64,000 nt of DNA from Sialis fuliginosa (taxonomy: Eukaryota; Arthropoda; Insecta; Megaloptera; Sialidae): positions 13,702,001-13,766,000 of the forward strand of contig OY540812.1 in assembly GCA_961205875.1 (NCBI GenBank). The letters are read 5' to 3'. Shown piece by piece: positions 2,332 through 47,668 of this stretch; within the stretch, counting starts at the first letter, position 1, and every line of letters starts with the position of its first letter. The notes beneath the pieces are model-generated. The model had not been told where the DNA came from, did no database searches, and saw nothing but the letters and a program-made list of their open reading frames with translations. The position numbers were made by a program, and so were the translations under genes.

Positions 2332-5300
2332 CTTAATACTTTCCTGTAATTTTTGGCACTCTCCACATTTTGTTACTCGGTTGCGGCTTTTTACGTCTTT
2401 GTCTTTCCTTTTGTTACGATGTTCTGTAAAACATAAATATTTATGTTATCGATAATATGTTCTGTGTTTCTTAATTACATACTATGTGAGCATAATCTTT
2501 TAGTTCAAGTGTAACCAAATAATTTTTTTAATTTTTTACAAAATATAAAATTAGTTTTATATGTATTTTATAATCAGTTTTATTTATATTTATATATACT
2601 TTACGTTGTAAAAGTTTTATTGTACATAATATAATGATACAAACTATTTCACAAATAATTGAAACTAACAAATAATATTTTATTGGCTATAAATCAATTT
2701 CTCAATTTTAGTAAATGTCTTTATATTTTTTTCAGAAAATCATAATTTTTTTTATTAATATTTATTATTTTATTTTTAATCATTTATTTGATACGTTCAT
2801 CTATAAATTATACACGATTATTTTATAGTTACAGTCATTTTGTTTATCTATGTAATTCAATTTAATAACACATTATAGGTACTACGCTCGTCTTAATAAA
2901 AAAAAAATAAAATAAAACAGCCAAGTGTGTGTTGGGCACATTATAGGTTTTCGTATAGTCATTACGATTTATAAACAAAAGTTATTTCAATTTTTTTTAT
3001 AAACTGAAGGATTAAAATCAAAAGATCTTTTAACATTTTTTATTGTATTTTAGGAGACCTATCTAATGACATCCCACTAAATGGGATATGTGAGTTCACT
3101 TTTATAATTTTCAGTGGAAGTACTAATTAAAAGCTACATTCTCGAATTTTTTCAGATTTTTTGAATAGATAGTTTAGAAATTAAGGGTGGGGGCGCGCTC
3201 TGATAACGACTTTGAACGCAAATATATCATGACTGAAGGGTTAAAATCAAAATGTCACATAACATTTTTTATTGCATTTTAGGAAACCTATCTAATGACA
3301 CCCCACTCAATGGGGTAAGTGAAAAAAAAAGTGAGTTTAATTTTCAGTCTATGGAAAGGGGGTCCAAAAATGTTTTTTTCAAAAATCTTATCATTTCTGT
3401 TTTTGTCTTATCAGTCTTCGTCCGTATACCAAATTTCATCTTAATCGGCTTAAATTTTTTGAGGACGAACATAGCGGAACTATGTATAAGGTTTCCTAGT
3501 TTTCTACGGAAACCTTAAAACGGACAAGTGCGAATAGGACTCGCGCCCTGAAAATGGATCCGATTCTCAAGACGTCTTTACGTAGAACGTATGAAAGAAA
3601 CCGAAAACTATGTTTGTCATGTACATATTAATTCCACATAGAATTAGAAATTAATGATTTTCGGATTTCTTCCTTTGCTTGTCCTATGAGACCTTCCTTC
3701 TTGCCAAATTTCAAGATTCTAGGTCAATGGCAAGTACCCTACAGGTTTCGATGATCAGTGAGTCAGTCTGTCAGTATCAAAATACGCTATACTATGAGAC
3801 TGTATTTGATATTAATTTCAACTTGATACCTCTAGCAATTCCTGAGAAAAGAGGTCTTGACGGACAAACAGACGAACAACAAAGTGATCTTAAAGAGTTC
3901 CGTTTTTTTTCATTTTGAGGTACAGAACCCTAAAAACTTGTTCTTGGATAGATACATATAAAATTTTTAATAAAAGTTGTTAAATTAAAATCAATTATCT
4001 TCATCCAATTAAGTGCATCAAAACTGTGAACGTGAGAAACATTTTTGGCTATGAACGTGTTTAATTAATAATAAACTTTTGTATTTATTTCAATTTTCCA
4101 TATTTGCATGACTTGATAATCCAATGATTCATTACAAAATCCGATAGTAAATTAGATTTTATGAACGTAAACTGTGACGACCTCGCAATTGAGTCCAATT
4201 CATACATGAATAAGGTTCAATTATAAACGTGATGCGGTAATGAGCTAAAAATACAATTACTACACGGTATGCGCAAAGTGGACGTCAGAACCGGCGAAAA
4301 GTAACATGTGAAGGAAAAACAAGCACGATTTAGATGTATTGGAAAATAAAAATATATCCGGGATGTGATATAACGTGCGTAGTAGCTTCGCCTATTACGA
4401 CACAGGATTTTGTACTAGAAAAATATCTTAATTGGAACGTCTAGAATTTTTAACTTGGATGGTTTTACAAAATATAATTTCATTGTATAGTTCAGTGGTT
4501 CTTAACCTTTTCAAAGTCTCAGAACTCTTTTATTGGTAAAAAAAATTGTGGAACACTATCTTACTGAATCATTAAGGTCCTTAAACAAACAATAAAAATA
4601 TGTAGATATAAATATTTTTTTATTAAAAACTACAGCTAACGTATTAATTTCTAGTCAAATATTAAAAATTTAAATTTGTAAAAGCCTAATCAACATAATT
4701 CGTAAAAAAGTAACTCTTGTAAAAAATATAAGTCAAATTTAACGTGAGATGCTACCATTGCTACCTTCATTTCTTTATCAATCAGGTCTTTCACGTTTTT
4801 AGGTTTCCGTAGAAAACTAGGAAACCTTATAGTTTCGCCATGTCCGTCCGTCCGTCCGTCCGTCCTCAAAAATTTTAAACCGATTAAGATGAAATTTGGT
4901 ATACAGACGAAGACTGATAACCCAAAAACAGAAATGATAATATTTTTGAAAAAAAAATTTTTTTGGATCCCCTTTCCATAGACTGAAAAGTATTTTCAAA
5001 AAAAATTTTTCACTTAATCCATTAAGTGGGGAGTCTTTAGATAGGTCTCCTAAAATGCAATAAAAAATGCAATATGACATTTTGATTTTAACCCTTCAGT
5101 CACGATATAATTGCGTTCAAAGTCGTGATAAAAGTGTCCCCCCCCCCTAATTTCTAAACTATTATTATTTAAAAAATCTGAAAAAATTCATGAATGTAGC
5201 CTTTAATAAGTACTTCCACTGAAAATTATAACGAACACTGTCAAAATTATTTTGGCCCAAACTCCCATTGACTGAAAAATGAACTCACAATTTTATTTTC

Positions 5301-8300
5301 ACATATCCCATTGAATGTGATGTCATTGGATAGGTATCCTAAAATGCAACAAAAAATGTTAAATGATCTTTTGATTTTAACCCTTCAGTCACGATATATT
5401 TGCATTTAAATGTCGTTATCAGAGCGTCCCCCCCCCCCTTAATTTCTAAACTATCTTTTCAAAAAATCTGAAAAAAATTTAGAATGTAGCTTTTAATTAG
5501 TACTTCCACTGAAAATTATAACGAACACTGTCAAAATTATTTTGGACCCCCCTCCCATAGACTGAAAAATGAACTCACATTTTTTTTTTCACTTAACCCA
5601 TTGAGTGGGATGTCATTAGATAGGTCTTCCAAAATGCAACAAAACTTGTTAAATGATCTTTTGATTTTAACCCTTCAGTCACGATATATTTGCATTTAAA
5701 TGTCGTTGTCAGAGTGTCCCCCCCACCCTAATTTCTATTCAAAAAATCTGAAAAAAATTCAGAATGTAGCTTTGAGTTAGTACTTTCACTGAAAATTATA
5801 CCGAACACTGTCAAAATTATTTTGGACCCCCTCCCATAGACTGAAAATTGTTCTCAAATTTTTTTTCACTTAACCCATTGAGTGGGGTATCTTTAGATAG
5901 GTCTCCTAAAATGCAACAAAAAATGTTATATGACCTTTTGATTTTAACCCTTCAGTCACGATATATTTGCATTTAAATGTAATTATCAGAGCGTCCGTTG
6001 AAATAATTCTTGTTTATAAATCGTAATGACTACGGAAACCTATCATGTGCGTGCCCAACACGCACTTGGCCATTTTATTTTGTTTTAATGTTCGTAAATG
6101 TTGAAAAGTCCAGTTCACGCAAATATGATGTTGAAAACAAGCTTGCACAAAAATTCAAAATTATTCAAAACCAGTTCAGAAAAATTTCAATACGATCTGT
6201 CGACAAACTAACTGCTACTTCATGAAATGAAAATTCGTAATTCGACATATAGGTATTAACTGCAGCAAATGGATTTCGAATCCAATCGTAATTTTCTTTA
6301 TTTAGAGAAAAAAAGTAATTTACAATATTATTTTCTTCTAATAATGATCTAATCACTTATTGTTCTGGGAAACGACTGATGGATAGGATGAAAATCGGGC
6401 TTAGTAGCGCTGCTTGTAAATTGTTTTTATTTCGCGGAGCACTTGTAACATATTCGCAGAACACCGGTTAAGAACCACTTGTATAGAGCTTCATGTCGAG
6501 ACAAGATTTTTCTCGGTCTCGTCTCGTATACGTATTCACAATTCTAATGAGATTCAATGGATTTAAAAAAAATAATAGTATTTTATTTCTTCTAAATAAT
6601 TTTTAGATAATTGAAGTAAAAGATTTAAAAATATTTATTTTTTGTATTAATGTATCAATTTGGCAGTGTTATTAAGTGAGGATAGTACCTATATCAAATA
6701 TTATTTACTTATATTAATTTTTTTGAAAATAAAAAAATCCACTCAATCAGTTGTATTTATGATTATTTTTTTCTACAACCGTTTAAATAAGTAGTTTTTT
6801 GCATTAAAATGTTAGTGCGTAGTACAGTGGCGTAGATAGGGGGGTGATTGAGATGATTAATCACCTCCCATGAGTTTAGTTAAAGATATTTCTTTTTAAA
6901 ATTTTCCAAATATGAACAAAATTGTAGAAGTAAATTGGAAAAATTTGGTAAATTAAAAAAAAAAAAAAAAGATCATTCAATTTAACATATTAATAATTTT
7001 TTTCGCGTATTTTAGGGGCCCCTCAACCGCCACTTGTCATATCGCCCCCCATCGTAAAAATCTATCTACACCACTGGCGTAGTAATACACACATTTTTGC
7101 ATTTATTTACGATTAATGATTTATTATTTATTTATTTTTCACACTCGAGTGATGTTACACTCGGCTAGCGCCTCGGCAAACAAACATTCACTCTCGTGCT
7201 AAAAAACTGTAATTTTACACCCTTAAATTGTTACACAAATAACTATTAACGTTATAAAATCAAGCATAAATGTTTAGATATAAGTATTATGCATTGTAAA
7301 TATATAAGATTAAAAATTAATATAATAAATAGATTATCGCCACGAAAGATATAAATAATAATTGTTTTCTTAGTTATAGTGCAGTTTTAATTTAATTAAT
7401 ATTGTTATCAAATTAATACATGTTTACTTATATGTATAGATAACTCAAAAATTGTATTATTAACTTTAATAATAATTCTTTTGGCACATATCCAATTAAT
7501 TCATTTTAAGCAAAACATTTTATTACTCAAGTCTATTTATAATAAAATCATAAGATAAAATTTCTTGTAAAAACATTTTTTCTTAATTTTAAAAATAATA
7601 AATATTTCTTAATTTTTGAAATCCTAAACAGGGCGAACAAATAAGGTTATTAATTTGTACAAAAAATTAAGGAGATAAAAAATAAAGAAACATAATATTC
7701 ATAAATTGACCCTGCATAATTTGTCAAACATTAGAAGCAGTGTAGTGGATAAAATAATGTCAGACATTTATTTCCGCTAGTTATTAAGAGTAATTGACAA
7801 AACTGTCGTCATGCAATTTACATCCATGTAGGAAATGATATATACAGTTAATTTTTTTTATAAAATATTTATTAACCGTATTTATTTATTTAACCACTGA
7901 AAGTAATCGAATATACTCGTTAACTGTTGTCTTAATTTTAAACATGTGTCGTTCTTGAGATATCTTGAAAAAATAAATATTTTGAGATGACACCTCTCAC
8001 TCTTAGACACGATTTTGTAATTTTGAAATGGGACTGTCCTCAAGACAGACCCAACCATCCAACCAAGTTTCATTAGTATCAGTACCTAGTTAATAAGTTC
8101 TACGTGTGATAAGGATTAAGGGGACAGACAGACACACACACACACACACACAGACAGACAGATACGAAACGAAAATTGTTTGTCTTGACAAAATCAATTT
8201 AAAATTTTGAAATCGAAGAATAATTTTTTTATCTCGTTCTTAAACAATCACAAAGCTTCTCGTATCTTCGATATTGCGAGGAAGCAAAACAAAAAAATAC

Positions 8301-14050: not shown

Positions 14051-16183
14051 AGTACGTCTGGTTCGTGGCAAATAAAGCCAAAACGCTGCACTTTTTGATT
14101 GGGGTATGCCACTTTCTGTGGTCATATATAAGGTCAAATGAAAGATTTTCAGATAGAGAGCCACTTTAAAATCCGTGTAGAACACTGTTATATCGGCTAT
14201 TAAAGATGGCCCCCACGGTTTTTATTAAATTGGCTGTATCTCAGCTCCTAATCATCCGATTTCAATTTTATTTTGTTTATTTTAAAGTTCTTATTAAAAG
14301 AAATCTTTTTTATCATTATTCATTTTTCTCTAAATTTTAAGGGTTCCCCACAATTTTCCGAAATCTGAAGATTTCACTTTTCTTACAAACTTAATTGTTA
14401 TATAACTTGTTTATTGTGTCCAATAAATTTTTTTTACTTCATATAAAAAAGAAAGATATTTTTTTCTGCGTTCCATTGATAACTAGATAATACTGTTTTA
14501 CTTAACAACTTCTTTGGAAATAGCGTGTTAAACTAAGAAAAATAGATTCTTTTTGGATCATTCCAAGTCAAGTTTACCTGTATTGGTTTCTCGGATTCGA
14601 GATTTTGATGGAAATGTTCATTTATACCTTCCCTGAATCAATTCTGACTATTTTTATCATCATGTCTGTCTGTCTGTCTGTGTGTGTATCTGTTTGTCTG
14701 TAAACGCTGGAACTCAAAAATGGCAGTACATAGAGGGGTAAAATTTTATATTAAGGATTAATTTGTTTTAAAAAAGAAAACCAGATGTTTTTAAAACCGG
14801 AAACGGATATTTACTCTTGTAATTTTTGTAATTATTCGAAATATTTCTGAAACGGTACGTGTTGGAAGAAAATGTTTAAATAATAATTTACTTATAATAT
14901 TATTATTTATAATTTATGTTATGTTCAATTCCTCTCAAAAAAAGTTTTTGAGGTTATAATCGTTTTTTTCAATTATATTCGAAATGGTTTAAAGCAGAAA
15001 TAAATTATTGAAATAAAAGTTGTAGAGTACGTTATTTTCTTTAGTTTATGTTCCATTAATTTTTTTGTATCTTTTACCAATTAAAAAAAAATCTTTTTTA
15101 TTTAATTTTTTATTTTTTTTGAACAAGTTCATGACAGAATGAAATGTTTATAACAAAAAATGTAGACAACGTTATTATCTATAGTTTATGTTCTATTAAT
15201 TTTTTTGTATCTCTTACCAATTAAAAAAAAATCCTTTTTATTTAATTTTTTATTTTTTCCATTTTTTTTTAACAAGTTCATGACAGAATGAAATGTTTAT
15301 AACAAAAAATGTAGAGAACGTTATTTTCTATAGTTTATGTTCCATTAATTTTTTTGTATCTCTTACCAATTAAAAAAAATGTTTTTTATTTAATTTTTTA
15401 TTTTTTTCCATTTTTTTTAACAAGTTCATGGCAGAATGAAATGTTTATCACAAAATATGTAGAGAACGTTATTATCTATACTTTATGTTCTATTAATTTT
15501 TTTATATCTGTCATCAGTAAGCCAAAATTATTTGTTTTATATTAGTAGATACACGTACATTTTTTTATTGTATAAGAAAGTTCAGTGACATCCATGACAG
15601 ATTTTTCAATTTTTTAGCTATACCATATGAGAAAATTGATCCCAACATAAAATTTCATATGATAAAAGGTAAACATGACATGGAATGATCCAAAAATAGT
15701 CGATTTTTCTTAGTTTAACACTTTTTCCAAAGAAGTTGTTAATTAAAACAGTATTATCATGTTATCAATGGAACGCAGAAAAAAATGTCTTTCTTTTTTG
15801 TATGATGTAAAAAAATGATATTGGGCACAATAAAAAAGTTATATAAAAATTAAGTTCGTAAAAAAAGTAACATTTTCAGATTTTCGAAAATTGTGGGGAA
15901 CCCTTAAGATTTAGAGAAAAATGAATAATGATAAAAAAGATTTCTTTTAATAAGAACTTTAAAATAAACAAAATAAAATTGAAATCGGATGATTAGGAGC
16001 TGAGATACAGCCAATTTAATATAAACCGTGGGGGCCATCTTTAATAGCCGATATAATGGTGTTCTACACGGATTTTAAAGTGGCTCCCTATCTGAAAATT
16101 ATTCTTTTGACCTTATCTATGAGCACAGAAAGTGTCATACCCCAATCAAAAAGTGCAGGGTTTTTTTACGTACCAGACGTACT
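14051..16183. mobile_element. 2.1-kb foldback (palindromic) element
   Basis: Two inverted arms of about 600 bp. The outer left arm begins AGTACGTCTGGT and has CTGCACTTTTTGATTGGGGT; the right arm is its complement, ending near 16183. Other matched blocks include AGCTCCTAATCATCCGATTT and AGGGTTCCCCACAATTTTC. The centre holds direct repeats (about 15010-15520). Frames in it are not genes. Confidence 0.85.
15010..15520. repeat. Tandem repeat of ~150 bp inside the foldback element
   Basis: Three to four copies of a unit that starts AACAAGTTCATGACAGAATG and contains GTTTATGTTCYATTAATTTT. They sit between the two long inverted arms. Confidence 0.8.
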
Positions 16184-16310: not shown

Positions 16311-17017
16311 CTAAACATTTTCAATATTAACTGAAAAGCTAAATTGCTGAACTAATTCACTAGTATATTTTAAACCAAATATAACAATATATGGGATAGC
16401 AGCTATTAGAAATAAATATAAAGGATATGTTAAAGGAGGTGTTGATCCAAACGGACATAGCCAATATCCTCGTCTCACAGCATCTCGTGTATGATGACTC
16501 ATTGTTGATGCAACGATTAACCACACGTATCGATATGATTGCAACCAAACTAACGACACAAATAAACAGAGAGCTAATACAATACTAGTACAGTGAAAGG
16601 GAGGTCTTCCTTCAATTGATATTGCAGCCTGCAAAAGAATATATGTTTAAAATATATTATATTTTTATATAGGATATTAAGAAAAGCTTTTCTAAAACTT
16701 CTAAGAAAGACTATATTATAACTTACCTGTAATTTTAACGATTTAGCTTTTAAAAAATGATCCAAATCTATAACAGATGCTACAAATGTTGCCAATAAGA
16801 CTTCAGTAAAAGTATTAAAATAAATTCCAGACTTTATTTTTAATGCTACAATCAACCAGGTCAATCCACCGATAAAAGCATGTGTAGTGTTGTCAGCTAT
16901 GGCTCGAATAATATTTATGTTTGATATTAAAACTAAATAGTCACCTAGTACTGCAACAAGTACTATTAAAATTGCAAATATTATGTTTGAATCGATGTAG
17001 GTTTTTATTGAATACAT
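16311..17017 (-). CDS. TMEM267: Transmembrane protein 267 homolog
   Basis: Two exons, 17017-16727 (donor GTAAGT) and 16628-16311 (acceptor TTTTGCAG), phase 0, make about 202 residues, close to the length of vertebrate TMEM267 (215). The signature stretches are visible: IRAIADNTTHAFIG, FVASVIDLDHFLKAKSLKLQ joined to AAISIEGRPPFHCT, then SHHTRDAVRRGYWLCPFGST. These correspond to the family's DN-xH, ASVIDxDHF, RPPFHC, SHHxRDxxRxGxWxCPFG motifs. Several hydrophobic helices are present. The family has conserved His/Asp residues, but its biochemical role is not established. It faces Asterix head to head with 660 bp between start codons. The two separate frames that read through the intron are artefacts. 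Confidence 0.9.
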
Positions 17018-17677
17018 TTTATTTTAGCAAATGATTTATGTATAATTTTAAATGTTTGTATTATTATTATAATAATAAAAAATGCTTAAACTTTTGGTTT
17101 TCATATTAGATATGAATGATTATGTTTTTATGTACAGCAATACAAGAAATTTTTGGTTAATAATTATATTTCCTATTAACTTCTTTCTATTACTCTATAA
17201 ATTGCAGTTTACTTATGGTTTATTTATTCATATTCACTTTTGTATAAAACTGATTATTAATTACCCACATAAAAATTGTATCATAAAAATTAATTTCAAC
17301 AAATCACTGATTTTGACAGCTGTCAATACTGTATTTGTTATTGTTACATATTATGTTGATTGTTATATATTATTATTTGATGTTTTATTATTTTAAACTA
17401 AATAAAAATGTATAATAGTTATAATTTATTGATTTTCTTGAAGTATTTTTTTTACTTCAAATTACAATATTATTTATTAATTAATTTCCCGCTTACTATT
17501 TATAATATATTTGTGTGTAATCAGTGATAACCACAGATAATATACGTGACAATTACAACATCTTTGGTTTGATGACAGTTCTAATTAAATGGTCTTGTGT
17601 CACTTGTACGGTCAATGCCGTCAATTCACTTTAGAATTTGAAAAATTATTAGGTACATATAAATTATAAGTCAAAAA
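17018..17677. promoter_or_regulatory. Divergent promoter region TMEM267 / Asterix
   Basis: The 660 bp between the two start codons must carry both promoters and 5' UTRs. It is AT-rich. A 104-codon frame at 17082-17396 has no recognisable features and is taken as chance. Confidence 0.55.
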
Positions 17678-18083
17678 ATGTCATCACCAATTAATATCCA
17701 TGTTGACCCTAGGCGACCAGACAAACAACAAAGGTACTGTTAATTAATTGATTTACATATTTTGAAATTTTCTAAAAATATATTTTTTAAGGTACAAACA
17801 ACCAGTTAATGGAAATAATACTGCCCCAGGAACAGAAGATTTAACTCCAGACTACATGAATATTCTTGGAATGATATTCAGCATGTGTGGATTAATGATG
17901 CGTTTAAAATGGTGTGCGTGGGTTGCACTGTATTGTTCCTGTATTAGTTTTGCGAACTCTCGAAAATCTGATGACACTAAACAAATTTTGAGTTCTTTTA
18001 TGTTATCAGTTAGTGCTGTTATAATGTCATACTTACAGAATCCTCAACCAATGCCACCTCCGTGGGCAAATCCCATTCAATAA
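17678..18083 (+). CDS. WDR83OS: Asterix / WDR83OS, PAT-complex subunit
   Basis: Two exons, 17678-17733 (donor GTACTG) and 17792-18083 (acceptor TTTTTTAAG), with a 58-bp intron in phase 2, encode 115 residues. The family's length is about 106. The N-terminus [20 protein letters not shown] and the central block [36 protein letters not shown], ending [11 protein letters not shown], are diagnostic of Asterix. Three short hydrophobic helices are predicted. In the ER membrane, Asterix binds CCDC47 to form the PAT complex, an intramembrane chaperone that shelters polar transmembrane segments during multipass protein insertion. Short AATAAA signals lie near 18262. The ATG chosen is the only one giving the conserved N-terminal DPRRP. 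Confidence 0.95.
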
Positions 18084-18895: not shown

Positions 18896-20266
18896 TTAAG
18901 AATCTAATTGAATCTACAAACATTTTTTGGAGCTCCAGGGTTAAATTTATTTACATAAATTAATATATATCCAAGTACATATAAAAAACCTTTCAAGAAT
19001 TTTGGGAATACTGCATGGTTTATATTATGATTCTCAATAGAGCTTGGTTCAACTTTTGGTTGCATTCTTATAATTTTATTTTATAATTAAATTAAAATTA
19101 TATAACGGAATCATGAAATTTAAGAAATAGTAGGTAATCACTGATGAAATGTATGTAGATGTTTATTTGGATTGTTAAATATATTGAAATAAAAAAATAA
19201 AGATATATGAAGTATTTGTTTTGCGTGAATTTTTATTTATGTGCTGAAAATTCAATATAGTTATTAGGAAAAGGAGTAAAATATTTTTTGAATATTTATT
19301 AGAACAAATGTATATTTAACATTAATTTTATTTTAAACATTAAAATTGCAACAGTTTTATTGTCATTTATTTCATTATCACATCAGCAAGAAAAACTTTA
19401 ATGTTCTATAAACATTTTAAATATTACAACATAAATAAATATATACGGTATTTAATAAAGCAATAAAATTAATAAATTATTAACAATAATATTTTGGGAT
19501 GTGAATATTATGTCTCATTTCGATACACTTTATAAATACTTCAAGGTAAAATACTGTTTTTTTAAACTATATTGTACAGAGTACATAATATTATATTGTA
19601 TATAACAAACAATGGGAAGACAAGTATTTTTGTATTTGTACAACAATTAAAACTATTGAATAATTATTGTCTTTCTTATAACATTGTGGCTATCACATCA
19701 AAAACTACTTCTTAGTTTTAAATGTTTCTTAACTTTATCACAATAAACGTAACTAGGATTAACAGATAAATAAGATCCTGACAATATTTTTTTACAATAA
19801 AAAATACAACATTCATAAACTTTTAGTTTGATTGTATAACTTCTTAATTATTTATTATATATTGCTTTTTAATATTCCCTACTTAATATTCTTGAATAAT
19901 AAATTGACATATCTTAAAACCGTCAAGCCTAGTAACTAACGGAACAAATATATATATTATTAAATATTCATTTTCCATTACGTCTCATGTATTGCATCAG
20001 ATATATAGATTTGTAGATATTGTTGTTTATGTACACATATTGTGCTGTTTGAACACATTTATCAACATAGTTTAAGAACGATAATTGTTGGAATGTAATA
20101 AATATTTAATTCTATCATCACATATAAATGTCTTCTACAAGCTTTTATTCTCAACAAACTATGTGTTAAAATACTGAGCAAACACAACCACATAAATATC
20201 ATCCTAGTCTAGTGGTTCGGACTGATGAGTATTTCTGAGTTAACTATATTTCAAAAACTACGATAT
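18896..20266. other. Spacer between Asterix and FLVCR
   Basis: AT-rich, no gene seen. It includes the 3' UTR of FLVCR on the minus strand; an AATAAA signal in that orientation at 20144-20149 lies 118 bp beyond the stop. Confidence 0.4.
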
Positions 20267-21026
20267 TCATGGTTTGGAATGTGCGTGCGCTGCTTGTCTT
20301 CGTAAATTTGCTTTTATTGCAGCAGTGATGAGAACACCCACAAATAGTGCTATACATAAGGCAACGTTTGCCCACATATCTCCAAATTCAGTGAGTAGCT
20401 CTGAATAAAGTGCAGTAAAAGCGATTCCAAAAACCTAAAATATAAATGTAATATTAAAGCACAAATAGTGTTATAGTAACACGAAAATATTTTAATAACA
20501 AATTTAAACTACCTGTGATGCGGCATTTAATAATCCTGCCGATGTTCCTTCTGGTTCTGGGTACGTAAGTTCTGCTGCAAATTCAAAACCCACTGGCAAA
20601 AATCCGGTCATAAAAAAGCTAAAATATAATCGTAAATACATTAATGAATTCTTTCTGTAAACAATTACATTATTCGTATTTACCCTAAGAGACCAGAAGC
20701 AACGTAGACAACAGCGATATATCCACAACTAAGTGTGAAAGTGTATACTATCATTCCAACCAATGAGAATGTGTATAAAGCTAATGTTGTTTCCCTAATA
20801 AACAAAATAATTTAATTAAATATCATTCAGTGATTTTAATTAATTAGAATGACATATTTTCATATTATTTTAAAATTCTATAAATCAGAGGATATTTGAA
20901 AGTAATTAAAATAATTTCTTACTTAAAACGATGAGTTTTATCCAAGACAATACCAGATACAACCGAACCTAACATTCCTGCCAAAACAATTACCAATCCT
21001 ATTCTTCCGGCATCTTCTTCTCGACC
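20267..21026 (-). CDS. FLVCR: FLVCR exons 5-8
   Basis: Four small exons separated by introns of 128, 65 and 78 bp. They encode [20 protein letters not shown], then [20 protein letters not shown], then [19 protein letters not shown], then [14 protein letters not shown] to [15 protein letters not shown] and stop TGA. These are helices 8-12 and a short basic cytoplasmic tail, much shorter than in vertebrates. Confidence 0.95.
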
Positions 21027-24000
21027 CTGTAATATCAGAAACATTTTAATTTCATGAAAATATCTTTTTTTAAGAACAAGTGCAGTGCAAAGTGCGCTGA
21101 CAAAAAAAAATACAGTTGTGGGCATGTGGTGCAGTATGCAATGCAGTTTTATGCAAACAGGCAAAAATATGTACAAATAAACTTGTAAAAATTGATAACT
21201 TCAAATTGATGAAAATATTTTTCTTGTGCGCAATATCATTTACATTTGCCATACCCAATTTGAAGTACGGATGTTGATTCCAAATCGAACTATTATACTA
21301 AACGTAGACTATAAATTATTATATTAAGATATGCCTTTTTAAGCACGTGGACTTCAATTCTTGTGATTAGCTGTGAAAGAAAATGATTAACCTTTCTTAA
21401 GAATTTATAGAAATACTGTTAGAACAGATTTCACTAACCATGATAGGTATAGCATTAAGTTTTATTTATAATTATCCTTTTAAATCTGTCATTCAATAAT
21501 TTGATAATAACATTTTAATAGACTTCAAACTTATTGTTTTTAATATAGGTACTTGTGTATAAATTATTAAAATATGAACTTACGGGATAATATTGAAGAA
21601 CAATTTGATTGAGTAATGTTGATATTGCATAAAATACCCCAACATTTATTCCATATGAAACAAGTAGAAGCATGTAGCCTGGATTAAGAGCTAAATGTTT
21701 AACTGATTGTTTAAATGGTACTTGAGCTGTTTCTAATTTTTGAGCTTGAGCAGCACTGACAGGTTCTGGAGGAGCCGCTTTGAAAACTGAAATTAGTTTG
21801 AAATAAAATAATTGTAAAATAGGAAGATAACAAATAAATTAATACAATACAAAATTCTTTTATTCCATAAAGTTATTATACAATTTTTAGCTGTAAAATA
21901 AATCAAAACTTAAACATTGAATATTTAGTTAAATTATAATACAAAAATGTATTAATAAAAATTTCATAATTTAATTCAGCATTGTAGGAGAACATAAATT
22001 TCTTTATGAATAATCATTTCTAATAAAGATTTAATCTAAGTTATATATCTAAATTGTGATAAAATTATTATAAATATGTGGATACTAACTGAAATGTATT
22101 TATTTTATGATATATATAAAATAAAATTTTAAACCATTTGCAAATACGTATGAAAAAAATTCACTAAAAGTAACAGTAGTAAAATCTACTTGTTTCTAAA
22201 AAATTTACAAAATAAAATCTGTGATACTTAAAACCTAATTATATATTAAGTAAAATCGATTACATTAACAATTCGTTGTCAATGAAGTGTACGTTTTTAA
22301 GATATTAAAAATTATTGTGCACTGAATAAAAGCATTTAAAACAAATTATATATAAAAGCACATAGTCAACAAAAAAGTGATTCACATGTACTTTTGACAT
22401 TTTTGTACATAACATATTATAAACAATTATTACGTTCATTTTTGTCAAAGTCATATGGCTTTGTATAGTTAAGTACAACAGTGAAATAATTTAGAAAATT
22501 CACTTGCACTTATTCATTAGGTAAATTTTAGATTTGGACAATATAAAAGATTATTTTTATTATTTAAAATGCCGATTAATTAAGTATATTTCATTAAAAA
22601 AAATTATGAAATGAGTAATTGTTATTCAAGTTTCTAACTTTTCTTAAAAAATACTGATTTCTGAAAAATACAAAACTTTATGACGTTCATTCATACTTGA
22701 TGTGGACATGGGCAACTATGTTTTCAATTATTTTCAAGCTTTATTCATTCATTCAATATACACAAACTAAAACGTCATGGTCTTCGTAAAATAAACATTT
22801 AGAATTACGCAAATACAATTCTGACATTGCACTTCACACTGTTTTTATTCGAAATTGGTGTTAAACATATTTAAATCTTCAAACGTTGATGCAGCTCCTT
22901 GATCAGACAGCATTTGTAGCATGTCTGTCATATCATGACCAGCTGTTGAACCAGGCTGTACAGGAGCACCTGCAACTGAGGTCACCGTTTCAGATCCTTG
23001 ATTTGTAGTTGTTTGCTGTTGTGGCCAAGCCCACATGCCGGATTGAGTGGACGGTACACCGGTTGCTTGGTACGGAGATACACGAGTACCTCCACTCAAC
23101 TGAGTGTAAGTCGGACCTCCTCCACCTGGAGAAGAACGAGATGTCGGACTGTTCAGTTGACTGTATTGGTATCCCTCAGTCACTACAGCCTGCCTCCACG
23201 CAGTTTGGGCTGGTAATGGTCCCGGGCTACTAGTGTTGTTTTTAGACATACGTCCTGTGTTGGTCGGTACTTGCGATGGTGATCCGTATGCAATCGGAGA
23301 AGGCGTAGGTTCGTAGTTTCCGTACACAGGTTGCTGATTGCTGGTCGGACGTGCTTGCTGAATATTGTGTGTGGAATTGTTAGAAATCATGTGTGGAGCG
23401 TACATAGAGGCTGAATGAGGTTCTCTACGAGCTGGGACACTGTAGTCGAGACCTAGCCCACTCGGAACTTGTGATTGATATCCGATTTGATCTGTAGTAG
23501 AACTTGATTCACTTATTACTGTTGCTTCAGGAGCCACACTGTTATGTAGTGCTTTTGCTGTTGTATTTGTACATATTATATATTCCACTTCATCTGTATA
23601 TGGATTCAGAAAAGCAAAAGCTGAAGTTCTTAACCAAATCCACTCTCGGTTTTTGGCCCGGAATCGATACATTACAGACATTACCTGTCCTTTTAGTTTT
23701 AAAACTTGTTCAAAACTTTCTTTCATGTGTGTTTGATCTTCTAGGTGGAAAAAATCAAAACAACTTTTGCCCAGAAGTTCCGGAGGTGAATAACCTAATA
23801 ATCCGATTACACGTTGATCGACAAAAGTAAACTTTCCATCCATAGAATGACGGGATATGAATTCATTATTGTTATTTGAACCTGTTAAATCACTCGTGTT
23901 TGGAGAAGAGGTCACTTGTAATCGACCAATAGCAACAAGGCAGCAGTGCGAGGTAGAATGTAAATCATCTTCAGATTGAACACCTGTTAAAATAAGATTG

Positions 24001-27000
24001 ATTTAATTAATTTCTTTATTGAACTATCAAAATAATTCAATTACATCAAGTAATAAAACAATTAACTTACCTTGAAACATGTCTGTAGGTGGCCAGTTTT
24101 TAATATAACCTGTACAATGAACAACAGCGTAACTCTGTCCGTCACGTGCTGGACCTAATGTATTTCTTTGCTTCAATCTACTTAAATGACCCAATGACAT
24201 ATTTTCAGGCGCCACATCACCGATTTTCAATCTACATATAAACCCTCGCCTAGAACCCATACAAAGTCTCATTGAACTCTGATGGCCTTCTTTTTTCACA
24301 GTTCCAGTTTTTAGATCTAAAATACGTCCTGTATTTTGTGGTTCTTGTGTTGACAATTGTTCACGAACCTTTTCCACATCATCTGGATGAAGACTATCAT
24401 AAATGCAAGATCCGTACCACTCGTTTTGATTCACATTTAAAACGGGAGTTACTGAATCAGAAACGTATATAACGCGACCAGTATCACAGCTAACAACGAA
24501 CAAAAACCCATCTGCTGCTTCCAGAATTAGATGCTTTAATTCTTGATCTGTTAAAAAAGATGGTTTATATGTTCCATCAGTGCTCGTGTTGCCAGTACCA
24601 CGTAATGCTTTCATATGCGCTACGGCCATCCGTAAGATGGTGAGTTTGTCAGGTTTTCGTGCCAAAGCACTACAAGTGGGTACCATGTCTGAGAGTTCTG
24701 TAATATAAGCGGTCATTTTGTTGCGTCTTCTTCGTTCAATTTCACAATGATTTTCACGACTTGCAAAACGTTCTTTATCTTGTATACTTTCGTCTTCCAT
24801 TCTTCCAGTTCTGGGAAATTTACTCCTATTTAGGTCGTCTTCATCAGATGTTATACTTTCAGCACGACGTTTCGTAAGTGTAGTATTCGGTATTGGATAC
24901 GTTACCGTAGACATTTGATGTTAATAAATTCATAAGACTGTAGACATTAATTCACCGTATGTTGTAAAACAATGCACCAAACAATAGTAATCAACTATTA
25001 ACCTCAACATTCATTTGACGTTAACACAAACAAAGAACTTCATTGAACCGTTTGTGTAACTGAATTGTATATAAAATATTATAAACAAACATAAATATGA
25101 TAAAATACTAAAAAGAAACTACAACAACGTTAGTTTTGACTTATATCACGTAATTAAAACGGAAGAAATCGCAGCGTACAATATTCCACACAATCACTCT
25201 AATGTGAAGATGGCAACAATCGCATTGTACAGTTGACCAAGCAAATCATAGATGTCGTCTGAAGTTTTAAAATCGGTACAAAAGCGCTGTATATATAAAA
25301 TGTTTTGAGCATGTTTTCATCATTTTATACAATTAAAAAAAAATAATACGTATATAAAAAAATTAGAAAATAAAACTGATTTTGTACATAATATAAAAAA
25401 ATTATAAAACATATTTTATTCCATTCTACGTAAAATAATATTTTCAGAATTTGAAATGTTAATACAGAAAACATAAAGCAAAATATTTTAATTTTAAAAT
25501 ATATCAAAGTAAATAATAAAAGTAATTATTATTGAATTATGAAAAAGAAATATTAATATGAATATAGCAGTAAGAAGTTTAGAAAGTGTGTTTGTGCATA
25601 TTGAATAATGAGTTGGACGAGTTGTCGTTATCAGATTTACCAGTACGTGTCTCGTGAGCTTGAGTCTTTTGCTGTTTGTATCTGATTATCTGCCACGTTT
25701 GTTTATGGGACTTTCAAGTATATACATAAGAATTATGCACGTGTAAAGTACAGTGGAGTTGGGATTTTGTACATTAATGAGACTGTTGAAGCGTGTAAAA
25801 ATTATTTTACATAATATTCTATTTAAATTTACCTATAATATATGAACGCTGTTTTGAATTTTATTAATTGCAATTATGTATTATGATAATGATACCTACC
25901 AATTTTGTAATACTATTTTTTTAAAACATCCAATTAAAATGTTTTATGTTGATTTCATTGTTTAATTAATTTAAAAAATTGGGTAAAGTAGAGCGATGAG
26001 TAATTACACAGTAATTAAATTTAGGATTCAGTGATTTAAAATACGTTTTACTCTGTTATATATTATATAATATATATTATACGTACTATTATAATTTTAT
26101 AGTTCGAGTAGGTAGGTATTATTGATTTTGATAAATTTGAACGATATTTCACGGGAAATATAATTGTGGCGATATAATTAATAGCTCATTGTCAAATTTT
26201 CCGGTATTTATCCGGGCCACGGGCTCATCCGCCTTAGAATTATTGAAGAGTAGGAGTTCATGCTGAGACGAGACTATTTTTGGGTCTAGATCTAGATGAT
26301 ATCATATTTATTTATAATTCTCGCCGAAAGTATCGATTTTAAAAGAGAATGAAATAATTATAATAAATTATTGATAATATAATATTTTATATTACGACAT
26401 GGTTCTAGGTTCTTTAATGACTTGTAAGATACATTGTAAATTATATATTAAATAATATTTATCAAGATATGCTTAGATTAAAATTTGACGTGATGAAACA
26501 GAGACTAGATAAATTATCACGAGCCGAGACGAGACTTACCTAAACCTAGTGTACTCGTATCGTATGAAGCTCTAGTGAAGAGTTTTCAATTAAACTTTGA
26601 TAAAGAATTAAAATATTTATATATTGTATTTTATAAAAAAATAACAATAAAATTGTATACTTACGTAACAGAACTAAAATCAAGAGAACTGATGTCAGAG
26701 CAGCGACTGAATAAAACATTATTTGCAGATCTCTTCCAATAAGATCTAAGTCATCGTGGTTTTTAACAATCATTGGAGGCAATAAAAATCCCATTGCTAC
26801 ACCTAGCTGAAAATATATTAAAACAATTTGATAGTAGATACTTAATTTTTGACCTTTGGTACACTAAAAAAAGTATAATAATTAATAGAAACAGTTGATC
26901 ATTATTATAGGGCTTCATTTACGTCTAGGTATAACGATAACCAAGCGCTGGGAACCCTCAAATATATTATAACGTAATCTATATTAATAATTTATTAGTC

Positions 27001-30000
27001 ACATCCTACTAGTGTAAATAGACAACGTTGCGAAATAGTTTTTTAATACTCAATGAGGTCTTACTTAATCCGACATTGATTATTATTATTATTATTTTAT
27101 AACGTCAAGTTACTTTTGTTTTCTAAAGAAATTATTGGAAGTTTGGATAAAAAATCGCTGTGTTTACCCAAAATAAATATCAAATATAGCTAGCTAACTT
27201 GGCATGTTAAAACCTGGAAATATATGAGCTGAATAGTAAAATGATAAATGTATTCAAGAAAACATTTTTATTAAAATGTGCTTATCGAGAAACAATAATT
27301 TAATCATTTACGTGACAAACACGATAACAACCCCAATATGAATTATATTTCATTCTACCCTTCAGTATATTTCTGATCATAACTTGATTATTTCTACGTA
27401 TACAACTTATATTGTGCACGGATAACAAAAATAAAATTACCCCTTTTAACATTTATAACATTAAAAAATAAACAGCTATAACGATCACTGTGAAAATAAG
27501 AAAGTGTATTAAAAAATACAATTGAAAATATTGTTTGGAAAAATTGTGGTCTATTCACTTGACTGCTACATTATAAGAAAGTTATTTTTTATAATTTTTG
27601 GTGTTCAGTAATTTAGACATCAGTATTATATTCACGTAGTATACCTGTACATATTCGTAGAAATCCATGCGTAATACAATAGGGCATTTAAAATAAGTGT
27701 AGATAACTACATAATATTTACATATATATTATGTTTTATGTATGTCTGTGTATACGTGTGTATTCAAGAGGTTAGAGTTTACAGATTAATACAAAAGTAG
27801 AAGAAATAGTTATAACTATTACAAGGAAATAAACAAAATAACCTGAAACTCAATTAAAAAAAAGCTTGTAATAAATAAAACCTCTTATTATTAATGCATT
27901 ATTGTTTATCTATTCATTTTTTGATAAATGCTATTTTAATTAGGCAAGAAAATAATAAAAAATCGGTCAAGATATACACGGGGGTACGCCATAAGTGTTC
28001 CGATGTACGTAGGTACTACGAAGACAGGTGCATTTTTGGGTTAGAAAAAAATATAAAAATATATTCATATTCTATTAATTGAGATCTACATTTTGACACC
28101 CCACATGCCTAGATATGAAAAAAACTCTATGACGCCCCTCTCTATTACTCAAAAATTTGAAACGATATTGTTGATTTTAGTATTTAACGTTGGTAGTCTT
28201 ATCAAAACCCCTTTACCAATTTTTTTCAAATTTTTTGAGCGAGTAGTTATTAAATTAGTAGGGGGGGGGGGGGGTGGGCAAAATAAATAATTACTTGCAG
28301 ACGCCATTTTTGATTTAGAAAAAAATTCCATTGGTTTGGTTATTCATTTTGATTTGCCACATGTCTTGGTATAATTTTTTTAGTGCCCCTCCTCTGAAAA
28401 ATTATTGTTCTAGTTTTTTTACATCACTTTTAAAAATTCTATGTACCATACTGTAGTAAAATTGTATAACCAATACATCAGGACCATACTTAGACATTTT
28501 GAGGCCTGAGACACAAATAAAAAAATGATGTGAGGTCCTTATTTTCACAAGGCCCCTCAAATAGTGCTTCTTGCGCCTGTTTATAAGTACGGCTATGCTA
28601 TGCATAATGCATAATGCATGTAAATATACATATACCAGAAAATATGTATACTAAAAGTTTTATATTCTAAAAGTTTGAGTTTATTAATTAAAATTATCAT
28701 ATAGTATTTTTTATAGAATAGTATACGTTATAAATTGTTGTAAGGAAGGCATATTTTGTTTGTATTATTTATATATAATAATAATATTTATTTCATATAC
28801 TGTAGTACAGTGTAAAATAAGTCAAAAGAAAAAAAAACAAAATTCACAAAAACAAATACGGTTCTGTTCTTAACAGCAGACTGTTTAAATTGTTCGCGTG
28901 CACCCTAGATTCCTTATTAGACTGTTGTTACATAAAATTTATTGAAAATAAATGCCATAATAAAGCTCTGATCATGTATAATGTTTAAATAAGGATTTCC
29001 TCTAAGCGCGCGTTCATTCATTACATAATGGGGTTCTTGTATGTCTATACTGATGCTGGCCTATACAATTATATGCAATTTAATACTGTCATTTAACAAG
29101 AACACTGAAGGGGGACATACAGTCCTTATCTGCAGTTATAGGTAACAATTGACGACAGAAAAAAAAATGTTTAATGTCCGGTATTATAAAGGAGCTACCA
29201 AACACTTTTAATGTGGTATTAATTCTGTGATATTGTCTGTGATTTGTTTTGGAATTTAGATCAGAGAAACTTCAACTTATTTTAATACAGTTACTATTTT
29301 TCCATATTGAAATTGTAGTTTCCTATGTTTAAAACCGCTACAGCTTCAATTATTTGTTTTATATACGTTGACTTTTCTGCTTGAAAAACCCTAGCATACT
29401 TATGAATAATATACAATGTGAAATATAATTATAAAAATGTATATGTATCATGATGTAAGTCGGTATAATAAAATATGTTATACACATTTTTTACAGACAA
29501 TTTTGTTGTCGTAATAAAGTTGATGAAGTCAACAGGATATTCATAAAAACGCACACAAACACACAGATCGTATGTTTTTCACATTTCTTTTTCAATAAAA
29601 TCAATATAGCACACATATACTGAGATATATTTTGATAGTACGTTCCCGTATCTTCTGTGTTACAATCTTCTATTTTAATATTATCTTCCGCAGTTGCGTG
29701 AAAATAGTTTTATATGTGAGAGGAAATATTGTATTATTTTAATTTTTTAATATCCCGTTTTCACAAAATATTGATTTTATTTAAAGGGTTGTGAGCGTAA
29801 AAATAAGTTTTATTGATTTGAACTTTTTATAAATAACATTGACATTATTTGATGTCTATTTAAAAGATTAATTTTAGTTTATATAGAGTAAAGTAAAATT
29901 AATTAAAATCTTGTATTCATAAATTCCAAAAAATCGATTTTTGTGGATTTTTAAATTTAACTTTACGAATATATTGATTTAAAAATCATTATGAAAGCAT

Positions 30001-33000
30001 ATTAATACCTAAAGAAAATTTAAATCGTCTGAAATATGTGAAAACAGTGAGTACATACATGACTATTCACTATTACCTGTAGGTACAATAAGAAACGTTT
30101 TAAGAAAAAAATAAAATAAAACCGACTTAAAAAAACTTAAAAACACTGAAAAGTACATATTATTAAATTTAACAGTTTTTGAAATTGATTTTATTTTTTC
30201 ATTCTTTAAAAGTTTTTTATTGGTTAGGCACCGACTTCAAAAACTGTTTAATTAATTGATTTTCTTTAGTAGATTTTATTTTTCTCTTATGAGAGGCGTA
30301 TCTTCGAAAAAATTTCGATAAAAGTTATAGGGAATACTTCAGGAGTATACTCTGTCAAACAAAAAAAAAAACAATCGCCCAAATCGGTGCATATTTGTTG
30401 GAGTTACATACATAAAAAATATCCACCGCCGAATTGAGAACCTCCTCTTTTTTTGAAGTCGGTTAAAAAACAAATGCCTATTTACCTGATTTCCGAAGAC
30501 ACCTATGGAACAAGCTGAGCTGACTTGATCCGGGCCGAACCAGACGGCTGCAAGACGCGCCGGGACGCTAAGAATAAATATTTGGCTAACGGCAACAACA
30601 CTCTGGCCGAGAAAACCAACCCAGAACAAGTTAGGACCGACAGAAAGCACCTTGATCCACGACCCAGTGCATGTACCCATCGCACCGATTATCACGCACG
30701 TACGTAATCCCTGCAAAGAAAACAATACTATTAATTACTATTAATACCGTTAAGACTTACAATTAGTTATAATTTAAAATATAGGTAATTAAGAATTTAA
30801 ATTTGTCAAATCAAAAGTTACCAAAACTGTTAGAGATAATTGTTGTTATCGAAATCGGACATTTTTTTTTTAGTTGGGTATTCTTATTACATTACTTACA
30901 TTAAATACACTGTAATACTGTGTTTAGACAAAAAATAGCAATACGGTGTTTTAAAACACTTCGTATTTAAAAATGTATAGGGTTTGTTGCACTTTTGTCA
31001 AAAAGACACGATGTTGCTGTTTTGTTTTTTCGGTCTAAACACGGCATAATGCGGTGTTCACACCAAAGAAAACAAAACAGCAACACGGTGTTTGAAAACA
31101 CGTCGTATTTAAAAATGCATAGGCTTTATTGCACTTTTGTCAAAAAAACACGATGTTGCTGTTTTGTTTTTTCGGTCTAAACACGGCATAATGCGGTGTT
31201 CACACCAAAGAAAACAAAACAGCAACACGGTGTTTGAAAACACGTCGTATTTAAAAATGCATAGGCTTTATTGCACTTTTGTCAAAAAGACACGATGTTG
31301 CTGTTTTGTTTTTTCGGTCTAAACACGGCATAATGCGGTGTTCACACCAAAGAAAACAAAACAGCAACACGGTGTTTGAAAACACGTCGTATTTAAAAAT
31401 GCATAGGCTTTATTGCACTTTTGTCAAAAAGACACGATGTTGCTGTTTTGTTTTTTCGGTCTAAACACGGCATAAGAATTACAGTTTTTCCTGTCTACCC
31501 CGGATACTAAGCAAAAACATATAATATTTTACTCTCTGAAACTCAATATAAATCAATGGATAAACTGCAAACATTACAGCCTAAAATTATATTATTACAG
31601 TTTCAGACAGTAAAATATTATATATTTTCGGTAACTAACTGGGATAGACAGGAGAAATTGTAATTTTTACAGTAAATTTTTTTCCGTGTAACAATAATAA
31701 TAACAAAAGATAAATAGGTTTAATTAAGTGTGTTTTTGATTAATAACGGAAACTTATTTGAATACCTACATTATCTAAGTACTTAAATTATACAATACTT
31801 ATCAAATTTATCAGTGGCATAATCTGTGGTATCGTAAAATTATGTTGTCAAGAGTTCTGTAATCTTAGCACGGTGCTCTGGAAACCAACTTAAATAAAAA
31901 AATTGATTACCTATGATTTTTTTTGTACAATGAAATTCTTTAGTATTTAAGGAACATTTTAAGACCAAAAAGAAAAAAAATCGTCTTGGCGCTTTTTTAA
32001 TAATTCGTAAAACAAAAAAATACATAAATCGTGTACAGGTCAGAACGCGATTTTTTTGTATTATTTATTGTTTATTAACTTTTTACTCCACAAAAAAAAA
32101 AATTAAAAAATTAAAAATTATTGGGATTCGAACTCGGGACCCATTGTTTAATGATCTTTTATAATTTTTTGTAAATTTTAAATATAAACCAAACGGTATT
32201 TTATATCGAAAAATCATAAGAAACACAATAATTTGCTTTTATTAAGGGGACTCCAAAACATATTTTATATTATCGATCCGATAATTAATACCCGAGATAT
32301 GAATTATTTTCAATTTTGAACGGCCGCCATTTTGAAATTCATAAAGAAATTCCGCAAACTAACGAACTTAATTGAGGTATTTACAAGATCGATTTTTCTA
32401 CCAAGTTTCAAAAAGATCGGAAGAATACCTGAAAGGCTAGAGAGTCCGCAAGAAAAAGGTCTTATAATAAAATTGAAAATAGTTCATATCTCGAGTACTA
32501 ATTATTGAATCGATAATATAAAATATGTTTTAGAATCCTCTCAACAAAACCAAATTATTGTATCTCTTGTGATTTTTCGATATAAAGTACCGTTTGGTTG
32601 ATATTTTAAAATTTACAAAAAATTATAACAAATCTTGTAAGTCCTGAGTTCGAATTCCAATATATGATTATTTTTTATTTTTATTTTTTCTTGTAAGCTA
32701 ATAGTCTCATGTTCGAATCCCAATAATTTTTTTTTTTAATTTTTATTTGTTTGTTTATTATGTAGAGTAAAAAGTTAATTTACAATAAATGCTAAATAAA
32801 ATTCGCGTTATAACTCCCCAGTAATCGAAAAAGTAATCAAACAGAATCATATTTTGACGTTTCATTCCGGAATCTGTTAAATTCCGTAATCAAATGTAAC
32901 AATTTCAATCTGTTTAATTATGATTTAATACGATCAAGCGGTCTGAAGATGTTTGCAGTACTACCAATCCATGATACAATTTACCAATACACATTGCCAA

Positions 33001-47646: not shown

Positions 47647-47668
47647 GGCAACTTTGTCTGGGTCTTCC
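47272..47668 (-). CDS. FLVCR: FLVCR coding exon 1
   Basis: Starts after acceptor TTTTTTGCAG; ATG at 47646 is followed by a hydrophilic N-terminus (about 50 residues, rich in T, S, D), then [19 protein letters not shown] and helix 2. It ends LDKK before donor GTTAGT, phase 0. Strikingly GC-rich compared with the introns. Confidence 0.95.

Follow-up and report, generated by a model that had tools for sequence, protein, structure and literature searches.

Genes contained within an intron of another gene are a known kind of arrangement, of which same-strand nesting forms a large minority class. A Drosophila survey counted 1651 nested genes distributed over 865 hosts, and 727 of these genes share the host's direction (PMC3890989); approximately 6 % of fly genes are reported to be nested (PMC3786989), while for human nested genes a share of about 63 % on the opposite strand is reported (PMC3192792). 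In two Drosophila pairs, xl6-nop5 and ytr-eIF6, the authors concluded that the host ignores the polyadenylation (poly(A)) signal of the nested gene, and in a reporter the deletion of the donor splice site restored the use of the nested signal (PMC3890989). In mouse, the transcription of Mcts2, an imprinted gene retrotransposed from Mcts1 and nested in an intron of the multi-exon gene H13, drives intronic polyadenylation of its host (PMC13309782). In amniotes, retroposition to a new locus and the loss of a multi-exon parent were inferred for the intron-poor gene HAP40/F8A, which as F8A1/HAP40 lies in intron 22 of the unrelated factor VIII gene (PMC7725122). Here, we describe a 64,000-nucleotide (nt) stretch of the Sialis fuliginosa genome (contig OY540812.1, positions 13,702,001 to 13,766,000; hereafter the window), in which the complete gene tango, encoding a homologue of ARNT, lies within the third coding intron of the transporter gene FLVCR, both genes being on the minus strand. 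The locus is probably best explained as an ordinary same-strand intronic nested gene, and we infer that FLVCR and tango are separate transcription units.

The FLVCR/tango nesting was not found described among the listed titles and abstract openings of open-licence literature, and in a paper on insect FLVCR (PMC5801409) the word 'tango' occurs solely in a reference title. The locus is like xl6-nop5 and ytr-eIF6 in that a complete gene, with its own poly(A) signal intronic to the host, occupies a host intron; other genes are involved, however, and the disregard of the nested signal, which was reported for the Drosophila pairs, is what we infer for FLVCR and tango (PMC3890989). Another insect parallel is the tim2/2mit pair, in which a two-exon gene, 2mit, is likewise located in an intron of an unrelated host but, unlike tango, on the opposite strand; this nesting is reported for the honey bee as well as for 21 species of Drosophila (PMC3786989).

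The host gene consists of eight coding exons, extending on the minus strand from 47668 to 20267, which are spliced to encode a full-length protein of 477 amino acids (aa), with GT-AG borders at all seven introns between them. Exons are numbered as coding exons, and the exon 3 of the original prediction is coding exon 3. The features, given in base pairs (bp) where a length is stated, are as follows.

47272-47668, minus strand: FLVCR coding exon 1, with the ATG at 47646
30486-30710, minus strand: FLVCR coding exon 2, from the spliced model and PDB alignment
26665-26806, minus strand: FLVCR coding exon 3, ending in phase 1 with the donor GTAAGT
21787-26664, minus strand: FLVCR coding intron 3 (4878 bp), the host of tango in the spliced model
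21584-21786, minus strand: FLVCR coding exon 4, joined in frame with exon 3
20923-21026, minus strand: FLVCR coding exon 5, from the spliced model
20684-20794, minus strand: FLVCR coding exon 6, from the spliced model
20513-20618, minus strand: FLVCR coding exon 7, from the spliced model
20267-20434, minus strand: FLVCR coding exon 8 through the stop codon, from the spliced model

The family was assigned by comparison with solved structures and Pfam. All five PDB chains listed for the product at E <= 0.001 were those of FLVCR1 or FLVCR2 (E 2.9e-142 to 2.2e-140), with the best-aligned stretches falling between residues 35 and 473 of 477, and the Pfam family MFS_1 was matched with E 4.9e-28. Because a good acceptor (attttttgcag) precedes coding exon 1, 5' of the ATG, a further non-coding exon probably lies upstream. 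A genome search for the MFS family (9 of 210 candidates scored) did not include FLVCR among the matches listed and is uninformative on FLVCR copy number. The composition of the gene changes along its length: coding exons 1 and 2 (47272-47646 and 30486-30710) have a G+C content of 52 % and observed/expected (o/e) CpG ratios of 1.61 and 1.12, while the spliced exons 3-8 (26806-20267) have a G+C content of 38 % (35-43 % singly) and a CpG o/e of 0.62, the ratio being 0.44 in exon 3 and 0.17 in exon 4, where CpGs are few. The shift occurs from exon 2 to exon 3 and does not coincide with tango.

The nested gene is composed of two coding exons that together encode a complete product of 660 aa, with an in-frame stop closely upstream of the ATG.

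24071-24914, minus strand: tango coding exon 1 (bHLH and PAS-A), from the spliced model, Pfam and PDB
23984-24070, minus strand: tango intron of 87 bp, phase 1, GT-AG, in codon 282 of the spliced model
22845-23983, minus strand: tango coding exon 2 (PAS-B and C-terminal region), with the stop at 22845-22847
22740-22745, minus strand: candidate tango poly(A) signal AATAAA, approximately 100 nt past the stop, a hexamer match only

Two other AATAAA hexamers lie near the 3' end of tango, at 22849 (overlapping the stop) and at 22561. Pfam recognizes HLH and PAS domains in the product, and its best PDB match is ARNT (E 3.9e-176), with 590 bits for the ARNT chain vs 371 for BMAL1; the gene is assigned to tango/ARNT, not BMAL/cycle, because it combines a bHLH with two PAS domains and because its ARNT score is the higher. 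A search for relatives in prokaryote genome contigs returned 52 pattern matches, of which one was confirmed; this match, on a Rheinheimera contig, 37 % over residues 22-92 of a 233-aa query, was taken as chance. No relatives were found in viral contigs, and an Rfam scan of the window gave 0 matches at the gathering threshold.

The whole tango coding region (24914-22845) falls within FLVCR intron 3 (26664-21787). The central claim of the original prediction, that a complete two-exon tango lies inside this intron on the same strand, is thus borne out by the coordinates, with which both full-length products agree. The predicted join of the phase 1 end of exon 3 (26665) to the start of exon 4 (21786) was also confirmed, the FLVCR2 alignment being gapless across it. 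Chance can be dismissed as the origin of the exon structure, given that the two products are conserved and of full length.

The phases of the introns allow another arrangement, in which FLVCR exons 1-3 and exons 4-8 are separate or are spliced to tango exons. Phase 1 is shared by FLVCR intron 3 and the tango intron, so either exon swap would stay in frame, and open frames result from FLVCR exons 1-3 with tango exon 2 (626 aa) and from tango exon 1 with FLVCR exons 4-8 (511 aa). However, such phase agreement is expected by chance in about 1 of 3 cases, and both genes as modelled yield complete, known proteins; this arrangement is very improbable.

An assembly error that placed tango in the FLVCR intron is the least probable explanation of all. 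The window contains zero N (its G+C content is 27.7 %) and belongs to a contig of 35.8 Mb, the longest direct repeat in 20200-27200 is 35 nt at 71 % among the 20 of 23 families listed, and the genome search found no second full tango match elsewhere. This last result lessens the concern about misassembly raised in the original prediction without removing it. Repeat-mediated misassembly in particular was rejected, as no long repeats were found at the borders among the 20 of 23 direct families and the 25 of 55 inverted pairs listed.

According to the preferred explanation of an ordinary nested gene, FLVCR would be transcribed through tango and its exon 3 spliced to exon 4 over it. The FLVCR primary transcript would then contain the splice sites and poly(A) signal of tango, as originally proposed. 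The further claim that FLVCR must skip or suppress these signals stands insofar as they would be present in the transcript, but the notion of a special burden is overstated in view of the fly nested genes and of the chance level of AATAAA in the intron. Intron 3 holds 9 such hexamers compared with 8.1 +/- 2.9 in shuffled sequences, and a special AATAAA load was rejected on this count. Across the seven FLVCR introns there are 79, of which 59 are in intron 1, and since the FLVCR introns already hold this number, tango adds little to the poly(A)-signal load of its host. For intron 1 (47271-30711), the 59 hexamers of the transcribed strand exceed the 35.8 +/- 5.6 expected from shuffling single bases.

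Drosophila work, together with the U1 work cited there, suggests a manner in which the host may cope, namely that the recognition of the FLVCR exon 3 donor would silence intronic poly(A) signals, including that of tango. The donors of FLVCR exon 3 and of tango share the sequence GTAAGT and, among the 278 GT sites in the region, the tango donor ranks first and that of FLVCR exon 3 second or third, so the sequence is compatible with donor-based silencing of this kind. Transcription of tango itself would start from a promoter of its own, somewhere between 26664 and 24914, and would end at its own poly(A) signal, which would be usable in the tango transcript because it is exonic there. Weighing against this account of the splicing, the FLVCR exon 4 acceptor ranks 15th of 219 if the scoring excludes its own intron and first if that intron is included, the tango acceptor similarly moves between 21st of 219 and first, and the ranks are unstable as the scoring was built from eight introns only. 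Due to this small basis and the large shifts in acceptor rank, the splice scores cannot decide which acceptor wins.

The presence of a second active gene in the intron could nevertheless affect the host. Active tango transcription might terminate FLVCR transcripts prematurely within intron 3, leaving a product of 286 aa that comprises the first half of the transporter; such transcriptional interference is compatible with an ordinary nested gene and we consider it unlikely. It has a precedent in H13/Mcts2, where the host, as here, has several exons and carries the nested gene in one of its introns; Mcts2 is retrotransposed from Mcts1 and imprinted, and interference, shown in mouse, is hypothetical for tango (PMC13309782). 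Read-through past the FLVCR exon 3 donor would yield 247 FLVCR residues followed by 39 others and a stop, and AATAAA hexamers are available before tango at 26312, 25865 and 25420. On the other side, the hexamer count of intron 3 is at chance level, as given above, and in flies the use of intronic poly(A) signals is reported to be very rare (PMC3890989). As predicted from the sequence, the chimeric and truncated products are possibilities on paper.

What is most interesting about the locus is that the nested tango appears to be present in one copy and has few introns. When the window's own genome (392 Mb in 20 contigs) was searched in six frames with the 660-aa tango product, all 19 candidates were scored and 12 matches listed; the nested gene was the only full match, its two exons accounting for two of the 12. 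The next best match lies on contig C5, with 64 % identity across the bHLH stretch, and is accompanied by four more C5 matches within approximately 8 kb, in a gene which we take to be cycle/BMAL-like; the other five matches are weak (E 6.2e-8 to 7.5e-4) and lie at four other places. Two bHLH surveys give one ARNT per compared insect (PMC5126786; PMC3527142, six table columns). As no second full tango match was found by this genome search, a retrocopy beside a surviving parent was rejected.

The cycle-like gene on C5 (L022, 933-9060) is matched by tango in five pieces, a count that excludes one row pairing the tango PAS-B with the PAS-A of the cycle-like gene. The series of pieces is interrupted near tango residues 133, 206, 303-321 and 346-360, positions at which tango itself reads through without a break, while the single coding intron of tango (codon 282) falls inside one continuous match; introns absent from tango thus seem to be present in the cycle-like paralogue. 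A basic-region intron, reported for the pea aphid tgo (PMC3281481), is also absent from the nested tango.

Sequences flanking the gene include a 24-nt imperfect direct repeat of borderline significance.

25065-25088, minus strand: upstream copy of the 24-nt direct repeat, a possible old target-site duplication
22403-22426, minus strand: downstream copy, identical at 22 of 24 positions

No third copy within two mismatches was found elsewhere in the window. As the best match between the two flanks, the repeat scores 18, a value reached in 0.5 % of second-order shuffles (n = 400) and 1.7 % of third-order shuffles (n = 300). The single copy, the few introns and the flanking repeat fit, without proving, a retroposed tango that has outlived its parent, and it is a tentative suggestion, to which we give slightly less than even weight, that tango moved here by retroposition or another intron-losing route and that an intron-richer parent was later lost. 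The likeness to an orphan retrogene of the HAP40/F8A type lies in the fact that the search of the 392-Mb genome found no intron-bearing tango parent, and F8A1/HAP40 is likewise poor in introns and has an unrelated gene as its host. However, HAP40 is a single-exon gene with three human copies that was compared across many species, whereas tango has one intron and one copy and is seen in one genome (PMC7725122).

Several observations speak against the retroposition of tango. A repeat score of 18 was also reached by 6 % of 300 real pairs of unrelated window segments, and the repeat is A+T-rich and nearly palindromic. No poly(A) tract follows tango, the longest run within 545 bp past the stop being five A. 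The comparison with the cycle-like gene is one of match breaks and not of exon models built from splice sites, and the tgo of the ant Harpegnathos is reported to have no intron in its bHLH motif (PMC3527142). Because the ant motif lacks introns, the intron-poor state of tango may be old in insects; it may also be a local event.

The original prediction also raised the linked regulation of FLVCR and tango, for which no direct support was obtained. The idea, which is compatible with an ordinary nested gene, is that tango, as a partner of hypoxia and xenobiotic factors, acts on its host through sites in intron 3. The ACGTG core is bound by tango dimers, and a cluster of such sites is located upstream of the gene.

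25645-25743, strand not assigned: three ACGTG-core sites, one of them CACGTG, upstream of tango; weak (0.027 of shuffles)

In favour of the idea, this triple within 110 bp is the only one among the 58 sites of the window, and chains of ARNT and of EPAS1, which we take to be HIF2alpha, share PDB entry 4zp4. Furthermore, in Caco2 cells HIF2alpha is reported to bind the Flvcr1 promoter and to be needed for the hypoxic induction of Flvcr1a (review PMC10998817). Against it, the cluster was matched by 2.7 % of 2000 flank shuffles and was sought after the sites had already been seen, and the total of 5 flank sites is ordinary (0.14 of shuffles; equalled in 2 of 36 window pieces). The cluster is therefore weak evidence that does not support a regulatory claim, and linked regulation of this type appears improbable. 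Still less credence is given to a combined scheme in which the sole tango, an orphan retrogene that took the place of an intron-rich parent, stands under the transcription of FLVCR, whose mammalian counterpart is driven by the ARNT partner HIF2alpha, and in which tango activity in intron 3 would toggle FLVCR between the full and the truncated-half form. If true, this would amount to feedback in cis that links a regulator of oxygen and xenobiotic responses to a transporter of choline and heme.

Other elements were observed in the window. Downstream of the FLVCR 3' end, on the opposite strand, an open frame at 17766-18083 (plus strand) matches Asterix, a PAT complex subunit (Pfam ASTER, E 3.5e-43). 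Inside FLVCR intron 1, a 142-bp unit is repeated 3.8 times with a 97 % match (30932-31475), and two further tandem arrays occur at 4954-5996 (290-bp unit, 3.6 copies) and 15021-15509 (148-bp unit, 3.4 copies). Similar open frames in opposite orientation at 3237-3518 (plus strand) and 4690-5095 (minus strand) are probably copies of one repeat element, and the one that was tested had no Pfam match. At 16311-17023 (minus strand), two open frames that overlap each other, 111 and 149 aa long, resemble exons of a membrane protein gene; no Pfam match was found for either. The same genome assembly includes a mitochondrial contig (C20) of 15,590 bp, whose open frames we take to be COX1-3, ATP6 and ND2. 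Its tRNA order, taken from a permissive ARAGORN run that includes false hits, is I-Q-M before ND2, then W-C-Y, L between COX1 and COX2, K-D and A-R-N-S-E-F; I-Q-M and the rest correspond to the ancestral insect order, which speaks against ditrysian Lepidoptera as the source.

The locus provides a clean and well-delimited example of a single-copy regulator nested sense-wise in a transporter gene, which is useful for gene annotation, and it is suited to asking whether nested transcription alters the 3' ends of the host in an insect. If tango proves to be an orphan retrogene, it would be an instance in which the sole remaining form of a core developmental regulator is an intron-poor copy housed in a different gene.

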